Assembly: GCA_013335935.1 (NCBI GenBank) | Contig: JAAXUP010000016.1 | Span: 1-32,447, forward strand | DNA from: Eubacteriaceae bacterium | Lineage (GTDB): Bacteria > Bacillota > Clostridia > Eubacteriales > Alkalibacteraceae | Reading direction: 5' to 3' | DNA: 32,447 bases | Part shown: positions 7,129 through 8,857 of the stretch, piece after piece | How the letters are laid out: each line of letters opens with the position of its first letter | Numbering within the stretch: the stretch's first letter is position 1 | Notes under the pieces: generated by a model | Seen by the model: only the letters and a program-made list of their open reading frames with translations | Told to the model about the DNA's origin: nothing | Database searches by the model: none | Translations under genes and position numbers: made by a program

Positions 7129-7437
7129 ATGATGTTGAACATTAAAATACTTGGATCCGCCTGTGCAGTGAGCGATGAATATATGGAAGTTGTTGAAAAT
7201 CTGGCAAAGTCAAAAGGGCTTGAATTTTTCATTGAAAAAATCACAGAGGAGGAACTGATGAAGCCCTATGGGGTGACTGTTGACTGCATGTATGGGTACT
7301 GTCCCGGCTGCAAATTCAATCATGAAGGGTCAAAAGGCAAACACACTCCAGCCCTTGTGATCAATGAAGAGTTGAAACTCCACAGTATATTTCCAATGGA
7401 TGATATTTTCATTGAAATCTTAGAGGAGTCAAGATAA
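7129..7437 (+). CDS. Thioredoxin-fold small protein with a C-x4-C-x2-C motif
   Basis: 102 residues. The start (NIKILGSACAVSDEYMEVVENLAK) and end (TPALVINEELKLH then a short helix) match the small thioredoxin-like proteins whose first block normally reads GxxCPxC; here that site is C12-A-V-S, so the usual CxxC pair is absent. Instead C53, C58 and C61 (DCMYGYCPGC) lie in mid-protein, possibly a metal or cluster site. Transcribed divergently from the DUF1858-hemerythrin operon, which suggests a redox or metal theme. Two consecutive ATG codons are possible starts; GGGAG precedes them. Fold assignment is reasonable, function unknown. Confidence 0.7.
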   Translation: MMLNIKILGSACAVSDEYMEVVENLAKSKGLEFFIEKITEEELMKPYGVTVDCMYGYCPGCKFNHEGSKGKHTPALVINEELKLHSIFPMDDIFIEILEESR

Positions 7438-7542
7438 AAGGACACTTTATGGGTACATATTTATAGAATGTGAAAGTTCGTTTAAATCGCGGATATCCAT
7501 ACTTTTTAAAAATGTACACTGATTAAAATAGGGAGAGTGATT

Positions 7543-7611
7543 TTATGGATTCAGGACCCGTGAGTCGCGAGAAAAAGTATAAGGAACGATCTGCCGGCTA
7601 TGAATCCATAA
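7543..7611 (+). ncRNA. Structured leader of the CorA-type gene (candidate cis-regulatory RNA)
   Basis: A perfect 11-bp inverted repeat, TTATGGATTCA (7543-7553) and TGAATCCATAA (7601-7611), encloses 47 bases and would form a closing stem like that of an aptamer domain. I compared it by eye with the M-box, NiCo, fluoride and yybP-ykoY patterns I know and saw no match. The stem contains the start codon of the short ORF at 7545. A second hairpin follows at 7639-7675. Confidence 0.4.
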
Positions 7612-7619
7612 ATATATAG
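7545..7619 (+). CDS. Possible 24-aa leader peptide upstream of the CorA-type gene
   Basis: A short ORF beginning ATG GAT TCA with GGGAGAG ten bases upstream, ending at TAG 7617-7619. The product would be 24 residues, basic in the middle (SREKKYKERS). It lies wholly within the leader of the transporter gene, so translation of it could affect the downstream hairpin, as known for the corL and mgtL leaders of enteric bacteria. It may equally be a chance ORF in a structured RNA. Confidence 0.35.
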   Translation: MDSGPVSREKKYKERSAGYESINI

Positions 7620-7638
7620 AGGGTTGACTCTTTATGTC

Positions 7639-7675
7639 AGGATTTTTGAACCGGTGAGTTTCAAACAAAAATCCT
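7639..7675 (+). promoter_or_regulatory. Hairpin just upstream of the CorA-type start
   Basis: AGGATTTTTG (7639-7648) pairs perfectly with CAAAAATCCT (7666-7675) around 17 bases. No T run follows, so it is not a standard terminator; it ends six bases before the purine-rich ribosome site AGAAGGTG (7681-7688) and could control its access. Confidence 0.5.
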
Positions 7676-7694
7676 AAAGAAGAAGGTGACTCAT

Positions 7695-8627
7695 TTGATT
7701 AAAATTTATAAAAATGAAGGAAAGAAGTTAGTTGAACTTCAGGAGTTTGAGGATGGAGCATGGATCAATCTGTCCATGCCAAACAGTACTGAACTGAACA
7801 GAGTCAGCGAATATTTAAACGTAGATATTTCAAATTTACGGGCTGCTCTTGATGAAGAGGAAAGATCAAGGATAGAAATCGAGGATGACTGCATCCTGAT
7901 CATTGTTGACGTTCCCATCGTTACATTGGAAAATGACATCAACAAATATTCAACATTACCTCTGGGAATTATCCTGACAAATGAGAATATTGTTACGGTA
8001 TGTCTCCAGGAAATCCCAGTCTTTAAAGATTTCATCCTAGGTAGAGTCAAGGAATTTTACACCGTCAAGAAAACCAGATTTATTCTGCAAATTCTTTTTA
8101 AGAATGCCTCATACTATCTTAATTATCTGAGGCATATCGACAGGATGAGCAGCACAGTGGAAAGAGAACTGCATAAATCTCTGAAAAACAGGGAGCTTAT
8201 TGAACTTCTTGAACTGGAAAAGTCGCTGGTATATTTTTCAACTTCACTTCGAGGAAATGAAATCGTACTGGAAAAGATGCTCAAGCTGGATGCCATAAAG
8301 AAGTATCCTGAGGACACGGATCTTTTGGAAGATGTAATCATAGAAAACAGACAGGCTATTGAGATGGCAAATATCTACTCCAACATTCTTAGCGGGACAA
8401 TGGATGCCTTTGCCTCAGTCATTTCCAATAACCTTAATATGGTCATGAAATTCCTGACCTCGGTAACCATCGTTATGGCCATTCCCACCATCATTGCCAG
8501 CCTGTTTGGAATGAACGTACCAGTGCCCCTATCCAGCAATCCCTATGCTTTTCCGCTGATTTTTATGATAACCATTGGGGTGTCAGCCCTTGTAGCCATT
8601 TATATGATGAAGAAAAAATTATTTTGA
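7695..8627 (+). CDS. CorA-family divalent cation transporter
   Basis: 310 residues. Inner-membrane channel of the CorA type, normally for Mg2+ (also Co2+ or Ni2+ in relatives). A long cytoplasmic N-terminal domain is followed by two C-terminal membrane helices; the signature GMN is at about residues 272-274 (ASLFGMNVPVP) between them, and the chain ends with a basic MMKKKLF tail. I chose the TTG at 7695: the AAGGTG site lies six bases upstream. An in-frame GTG at 7686 overlaps that site. It is preceded by a long structured leader. No terminator is evident before the riboflavin promoter. Ion specificity is not shown. Confidence 0.9.
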   Translation: MIKIYKNEGKKLVELQEFEDGAWINLSMPNSTELNRVSEYLNVDISNLRAALDEEERSRIEIEDDCILIIVDVPIVTLENDINKYSTLPLGIILTNENIVTVCLQEIPVFKDFILGRVKEFYTVKKTRFILQILFKNASYYLNYLRHIDRMSSTVERELHKSLKNRELIELLELEKSLVYFSTSLRGNEIVLEKMLKLDAIKKYPEDTDLLEDVIIENRQAIEMANIYSNILSGTMDAFASVISNNLNMVMKFLTSVTIVMAIPTIIASLFGMNVPVPLSSNPYAFPLIFMITIGVSALVAIYMMKKKLF

Positions 8628-8672: not shown

Positions 8673-8687
8673 CTTATCAATTGAATA

Positions 8688-8802
8688 TGAACTTTCGGGG
8701 CAGGGTGAAATTCCCGACCGGCGGTAATAGTCCGCGAGCCAAAAATGGTTGAACTGGTGTAATTCCGGTACCGACAGTAAAGTCTGGATGAGAGAAAGTA
8801 TA
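8688..8802 (+). ncRNA. FMN riboswitch (RFN element)
   Basis: The conserved RFN blocks are all present: TTCGGGGCAGGGTGAAATTC, CCCGACCGGCGGTAATAGTC, CGCGAGCC, GAACTGGTG then AATTCCGGTACCGACAGTAA and AGTCTGGATGAGAGAA. It senses flavin mononucleotide and controls the downstream rib genes through the terminator at 8858-8888. The outer closing stem is ATGAACTTTC with its partner near GAGAAAGTAT. Confidence 0.97.
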
Positions 8803-8857
8803 CGACATATGCTATACGTTTGTTTTTGTATAGGGTAGTTGATTAAGAATTGTTGAC

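Follow-up and report, generated by a model that had tools for sequence, protein, structure and literature searches.

The window, that is, the whole stretch of DNA analysed here, comprises 32,447 nt of an Eubacteriaceae bacterium (GCA_013335935.1, contig JAAXUP010000016.1, forward strand). On its plus strand, at 7695-8627, it carries a corA gene with a TTG start that falls in line with those of relatives; the original prediction had called this gene CorA-type, and a match to PF01544 (9.1e-55) identifies it as a Mg2+ channel of that type. The corA ribosome site (AAGAAGGTGA) is read directly at 7680-7689 (+). A small thioredoxin-like gene (PF13192) at 7129-7437 lies immediately 5' of the corA leader, and an FMN riboswitch (RF00050) at 8687-8803, the sole Rfam match in the window, precedes the riboflavin genes that come after corA. 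A corA locus from the same order (L095) likewise has an FMN riboswitch 3' of corA. Within 7400-7720 we found no terminator-like site and, on the plus strand, no sigma-70-like promoter.

Upstream of corA, a leader ORF (MDSGPVSREKKYKERSAGYESINI; 7545-7619, +) runs for 24 codons from an ATG at 7545 to a TAG stop at 7617-7619, as had been proposed, and has its own purine-rich ribosome site (GGGAGAGTG) at 7531-7539 (+), a match to the Shine-Dalgarno consensus on direct reading. The ORF begins MDSGPVSREKK, and we assign it on its N-terminal motif and on its homologous position before corA; it is a short ORF with acidic and proline residues in its first codons, 5' of a Mg2+ transporter gene. Codons 1-5 (M-D-S-G-P; 7545-7559, +) form the conserved motif and the presumed pause or drop-off site. 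Asp2 and Pro5 are present and position 4 is Gly rather than Asp, so that there is a single acidic residue near the start. The leader has one Pro codon, one Asp codon and no run of any codon.

Several RNA elements overlap or follow this ORF on the plus strand. A perfect stem between 7543-7553 and 7601-7611 had been reported, and when its coordinates were re-read one further pair was gained, giving a perfect 12-bp helix (P1) whose 5' strand (7542-7553) lies over the leader start codon and whose 3' strand (7601-7612) lies in leader codons 19-23. Among 200 dinucleotide shuffles of 7438-7694, a single one formed a perfect stem of at least 11 bp, and the leader fold (-43 kcal/mol, z -2.36) was equalled by 3 of 200 shuffles. 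A hairpin termed P2 (7614-7637; 7614-7623 with 7628-7637, with a TTGA loop and G-U pairs) comes from the predicted fold only. The 10-bp hairpin P3 (7639-7675; 7639-7648 with 7666-7675) proved exact on re-reading, and it is not an intrinsic terminator because no T-run follows it. The short elements named in the original prediction, TGAGTC (7561-7566), GACTC (7626-7630) and GACTCA (7688-7693), are all present, and the suggested pairing of the first with the last forms the central part of a 9-bp helix, GUGAGUCGC at 7560-7568 with GUGACUCAU at 7686-7694, in the best fold predicted for RNA on which a ribosome stands at the leader stop. In that fold, the putative anti-ribosome-site segment in leader codons 6-8 (GTGAGTCGC, 7560-7568) pairs with a target (GTGACTCAT, 7686-7694) that ends at the base before the corA start; a ribosome at codon 5 covers 7560-7568. 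When the leader stretch was shuffled 1000 times, 24 of the shuffles matched its duplex with the corA ribosome site (-14.4 kcal/mol).

A leader family upstream of corA

Relatives were drawn from two partly overlapping samples of corA loci (e.g., L004 and L084 are the same place). One comprises 80 loci from a scan of genome contigs; the other comes from 391 Clostridia genomes, of which 139 have a CorA match at E 1e-40 or better, and 134 of these 139 upstream regions were read. Loci L242-L271, L322, and L324 were left out of the analysis, and the minus-strand loci L091, L096, L103, L104, L110, and L111 were left out of one reading of the loci. A leader was defined as an ORF of 8-60 codons within 300 nt that has 5 bases matching the ribosome-site consensus and begins M[DE]xxP or Mxx[DE]P.

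Such a leader precedes corA in 42 of the 134 Clostridia regions and in 28 of the 80 regions of the contig-scan sample. Dinucleotide shuffles, a control that covers this rule alone and corA loci alone, gave means of 0.6 and 0.35 and maxima of 3 and 1 in 20 rounds, while the reverse strand gave 0 and 2, respectively. At neighbouring genes, a rule-fitting ORF was found at 3 of 126, and two of these are corA leaders assigned to the wrong start. Eighteen of 40 families have the leader, and the window's family has it at both of its corA loci; 92 of the 134 Clostridia regions lack it, and two large families have it at 0 of 17 and 0 of 15 corA genes.

The window and its closest relatives share the N-terminus MDSGP, while other relatives begin MDADP, MDCDP, MDSDP, MDTDP, MEGDP, MDVGP, MNPDP, MKPDP, or MSTDP. 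Among 59 corA leaders with Pro5, Asp or Glu stands at position 2 in 47 and at position 4 in 44, the latter position being Asp in 42 and Gly in 8. The Pro5 codon varies (CCT 38, CCG 11, CCA 9, and CCC 1), the Asp codons also vary synonymously, and selection therefore appears to act on the peptide. The corA leaders have 12-50 residues, of which about five are kept and the remainder varied. Beyond the ORF start and the ribosome sites, no RNA sequence conservation was found in the corA upstream regions compared. Judged from these sequences, the start of the short ORF is kept among relatives and the stem sequences are not. The kept ORF start strongly supports a leader-peptide reading.

An intrinsic terminator was rejected as the general output: the window has none, and an ad hoc rule picked out a terminator-like element in 6 of 82 leaders. 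One relative (L008) has a terminator-like hairpin and T-run between leader and corA, where the stretch after the leader stop could serve as antiterminator. A few relatives such as this one may use transcription attenuation in place of ribosome-site control.

Association with magnesium channels and M-boxes

We also searched the 391 Clostridia genomes for an Asp-Pro leader pattern independently of the downstream gene, which gave 19 matches as compared to 1 for the reversed-pattern control. Their positions identify 15 of the 19 as leaders of corA loci found in the same genomes, and two lie directly 5' of a gene with MgtE_N and CBS domains; of the remaining two, one falls on the beginning of an HtrA-like protease gene and the other looks like a chance match. 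The protease (L290, G273:C16) itself starts MDRDPYSEYNDY after a strong ribosome site, which is an early Asp-Pro in a full-length protein. MgtE is a Mg2+ channel that is not homologous to CorA. Among the best-scoring 30 mgtE loci, which are not a random draw, 13 have such a leader, and 7 of these 13 read MDxxPLP. The mgtE of the window's own genome (L321) has neither a leader ORF nor an M-box.

The M-box (RF00380) is likewise tied to Mg2+ importers, but unlike the leader it is an RNA aptamer, and it is absent from the window, where no match reaches the gathering score and 7438-7760 is empty even at E up to 10. The Rfam covariance-model search gave no match to any known class in the corA leader, metal riboswitches included. 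The earlier statement that the M-box and other metal riboswitches do not match therefore holds for the window, and true M-boxes do precede the same kind of leader elsewhere. Among the 39 leader-bearing loci scanned, 11 have an M-box 5' of the leader and on its strand (8 of 25 corA and 3 of 14 mgtE), the upstream DNA being only 400 nt at 2 of the 25 corA loci and about 550 nt at 12 of the 14 mgtE loci. These tandem loci, with an M-box and an MDxxP-type leader, are L011, L014, L016, L095, L119, L124, L128, and L131 for corA and L280, L284, and L298 for mgtE. Each would place two presumed Mg2+ sensors on a single mRNA.

A second type of leader, with EPDP, DPEP, or EPEP among the first 14 residues, was found in 18 of the 80 contig-scan corA loci, with a TTG start in all 18; a Thermolongibacillus locus (L021) has such a leader with an ATG start. 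Sixteen of the 18 records are labelled Bacillales. The other two, labelled Chryseobacterium sp. ISL-80 (L050) and Pseudomonas sp. ISL-84 (L063), have a Bacillaceae-like corA and leader, which suggests that these genomes are mislabelled. The 18 leaders are alignable and share three helices. Helix A joins the leader ribosome site to a later part of the leader, helix B joins leader codons to RCTTCCTC, and helix C joins CTTCCTC to the corA ribosome site; helices B and C are mutually exclusive because CTTCCTC belongs to both. Helices A and B are paired in 91.8% of alignment cells as compared to 40-58% when slid, and helix C in 96.8% as compared to 48-78%. Two-sided changes were seen at one pair in helices A and B, which is not above slid or shuffled versions, and at one pair in helix C. 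Two-sided covariation is scarce and is weak evidence here, and the persistence of pairing is the better evidence.

Ribosome position and access to the transporter ribosome site

Across leaders that cannot be aligned, a more distal stretch of the RNA is complementary to the leader ribosome site and start, which is the layout of P1. Forty-four of 67 distinct corA leaders ranked among the best 3 against 60 shuffles for this complementarity, and the window leader ranked 4th. Over 81 corA and mgtE leaders, the mean z is -2.49, as compared to -0.24 for a control segment 60-90 nt upstream. Leaders were counted as distinct when they differ within the first nine residues, and p values are optimistic because some distinct leaders are related.

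We computed the energy needed to open the transporter ribosome site in 78 leaders with stretches of RNA covered by a ribosome, the early position reaching from the leader ribosome site to +28. The mean opening energy is 5.74 for free RNA, 2.70 with an early ribosome, and 3.22 when the leader stop is covered, while shuffles give 3.35, 3.25, and 2.87, respectively. The drop from free to early is -3.04 as compared to -0.10 in shuffles (Wilcoxon p 4e-11, which is optimistic in that leaders are related). Over all 78 leaders there is no clear difference between early and late, the early position being favoured by more than 1 kcal/mol in 26 and the late position in 22. In the 35 leaders whose stop lies 45 nt or more upstream of the transporter, the values are 2.51 early and 5.01 at the stop, and 22 favour early as compared to 3. 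The contrast between early and late is confined to leaders with a stop well upstream, because a ribosome at the stop opens the site over the whole set; in nearer-stopping leaders, a stop ribosome would sit on or beside the transporter ribosome site, which is outside the calculation. As computed, the opening of the ribosome site depends on ribosome position across the family.

When a single footprint was moved along the ORF, the site was open in the family while the footprint lay at codons 1-5 (3.0-3.5) and was shut once it had reached about codon 10 (5.1-6.1). The Asp/Pro motif would therefore mark the end of the stretch in which a stationary ribosome holds the importer open. Bacillaceae leaders have the motif at codons 6-10, later than the codons 1-3 that open the site, so repeated drop-off and re-entry must be assumed there.

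The window follows the expected order with small differences, its opening energy being 2.1 for free RNA, 1.6 with the region from the start to codon 5 covered, and 4.0 when the ribosome has reached the stop. With single footprints, codons 1-2 gave 7.3 and 6.3 and codon 3 gave 1.2, while the values were 2.7 for codons 4-5 and 4.1-4.3 for codons 16-22. The shut state at codons 1-2 runs against the model, and the value at codons 4-5 exceeds that of free RNA. P1 crosses the anti-ribosome-site helix, and a pseudoknot, which is beyond these folds, may therefore form in free RNA. In these models the RNA of the window itself gives a weak and mixed signal; the leader is a family member by its ORF, position, and P1, and the calculations lend weak support to a switch of its own.

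Known systems, proposed mechanism, and alternative readings

The closest known system to the window leader is MgtQ of Salmonella, described in the available text of PMC8092293 as a translation-aborting ORF of 8 codons that precedes mgtB inside an operon. It has the acidic codons Asp2 and Glu5, a strong ribosome site, and stems 1:2 and 3:4 that alternate with 2:3; the mgtB ribosome site becomes accessible only when a ribosome occupies the beginning of the ORF, a logic that is proven in Salmonella (PMC8092293). The window leader and its relatives share with it the short ORF, the ribosome site, early acidic codons, and a downstream Mg2+ transporter; exclusive structures set by ribosome position are predicted for the family, with a weak and mixed signal in the window. 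They differ in having 12-50 codons, Pro5 always, and corA or mgtE in Bacillota, whereas MgtQ serves the P-type ATPase gene mgtB in Enterobacteria. The Pro4 codon of MgtQ acted via the stem and not via the peptide (PMC8092293), which calls for caution about proline here, while the synonymous variation of Pro5 argues for the residue. As far as can be computed, the window element would work like MgtQ.

Other systems resemble the leaders in part, as described in the accessible portions of the cited papers. In MgtL, the leader of mgtA, an early EPDP destabilises the E. coli ribosome (PMC11282234), and low Mg2+ turns the importer on, the leader acting by way of Rho-dependent termination (PMC11282234, PMC11552253). 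The Bacillaceae leaders carry EPDP or its permutations, but their predicted target, unlike that of MgtL, is the transporter ribosome site. CorL, the leader of corA in E. coli and Salmonella, combines a short ORF with two exclusive structures and Mg2+-responsive expression (PMC11552253), and short ORFs with predicted exclusive structures likewise lie 5' of corA here; CorL reportedly has fewer acidic and Pro residues and acts via Rho (PMC11552253), and the window leader differs from it by its M-D-x-x-P start. In Mycobacterium tuberculosis, an M-box and the uORF Rv1805A, with a conserved Pro at position 7, precede the pe20 operon; the M-box controls the ORF, which is reported as mycobacteria-specific (PMC12810186). 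The order of M-box and conserved short ORF with a conserved Pro is the same, whereas the leaders here have Pro5 and precede corA or mgtE. A gammaproteobacterial corA motif (PMC6429828) and a Thioalkalivibrio mgtE motif (PMC11109978) were set aside, each being confined to its other group in the available text of its paper. The available text of PMC8632094 mentions neither corA, mgtE, nor magnesium, and that of PMC13009471 holds nothing bearing on these leaders.

The ORF family combines its motif, its position, and a recurring P1 layout with ties to two unrelated Mg2+ transporters and to M-boxes. We consider a ribosome-sensed leader-peptide switch for the Mg2+ channel to be the best reading of the window leader, and a likely one, in which the awkward translation of a Met-Asp-x-x-Pro leader probably signals scarce magnesium. 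At Asp2 and Pro5 of the window leader, for which relatives usually have Asp4-Pro5, a newly started ribosome would pause or fall off, more so at low Mg2+. Ribosomes on or re-entering codons 1-5 would mask the P1 5' strand, and in the window also the putative anti-ribosome-site stretch of codons 6-8, leaving the corA ribosome site open so that corA would be made. With enough Mg2+, the ribosome would reach the leader end, the inhibitory pairing would form, and corA would be shut. We infer the pause or drop-off at the motif, its Mg2+ dependence, and the direction of control by analogy, the pause or drop-off at low Mg2+ because of MgtL, MgtQ, and the stalling at Asp-Pro repeats in Bacillus subtilis without EF-P. 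The original prediction had left the choice between a cation-responsive switch and a leader-peptide system; the leader peptide is strongly supported, its ORF start being kept, and a metal-binding aptamer is not supported, as Rfam gave no match in the leader and the regions compared show no RNA sequence conservation beyond the ORF start and the ribosome sites. The leader is probably cation-responsive, through the ribosome.

Other readings of the same features were weighed. A direct riboswitch, with Mg2+ or another cation bound by the RNA and with an incidental short ORF, would fit the strong stems, the cation-channel gene, and a fold better than shuffles, but this is very improbable given that the leader lacks an Rfam match, that relatives keep the ORF start but differ freely in their stem sequences, and that the Mg2+ aptamer, where it exists, is a separate M-box upstream. 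An attenuator that reports the charging of tRNA-Pro or tRNA-Asp draws on the Pro5 and Asp of the leaders and on Salmonella mgtP, which the available text of PMC8092293 describes as responsive to charged tRNA-Pro. It is quite unlikely, as the single Pro and single Asp codon of the window form no single-codon run, 7400-7720 has no terminator-like site, and Mg2+ channels lie downstream in both the corA and the mgtE cases.

The leader might instead sense a general difficulty of elongation, such as loss of EF-P or ABCF or the action of antibiotics, with Mg2+ import controlled since ribosomes need Mg2+; ribosomes of Bacillus subtilis without EF-P do stall at Asp-Pro repeats, which YfmR relieves (PMC11381351, available text). 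We regard this as unlikely, because the tandem M-boxes and the two unrelated Mg2+ channels fit Mg2+ as the signal. The conserved start and ribosome site would also suit a functional micropeptide that acts on the channel, an extremely improbable reading when only about five residues are kept in corA leaders of such varied length and sequence.

Beyond the window, we think it reasonably probable that a large class of Mg2+ sensors based on the ribosome, as yet undescribed, exists in Bacillota, in which short M-D-x-D-P or EPDP leaders open the ribosome sites of corA or mgtE, often behind an M-box. Together with MgtL and MgtQ, nascent-chain ribosome instability would then be a recurrent, probably convergent, Mg2+ gauge. 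No description of such leaders in Bacillota was found in open-access full texts, most subscription papers and preprints being outside the search, and in the portions of the literature examined Mg2+ sensing via ribosome instability on acidic or Pro leaders appears only for enterobacterial mgtA, mgtB, and possibly corA. If true, a tandem mRNA would gauge Mg2+ twice, by RNA binding and by ribosome stability, which would explain why an M-box and a leader ORF share one 5' region. With the same logic at work before corA and mgtE in Clostridia and Bacillaceae, the ribosome would become a general sensor of Mg2+, and Bacillus-like systems would be available for direct tests of Asp-Pro stalling and its relief by EF-P and YfmR (PMC11381351, available text).

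A minor observation concerns the second, distant CorA gene of the window's genome (L323, G000:C140), where an 8-codon ORF, MECPSVWV, lies at 675-701 with a ribosome site, about 95 nt 5' of the gene. It falls outside the family rule, with Pro at position 4, yet it is MgtQ-like in size.
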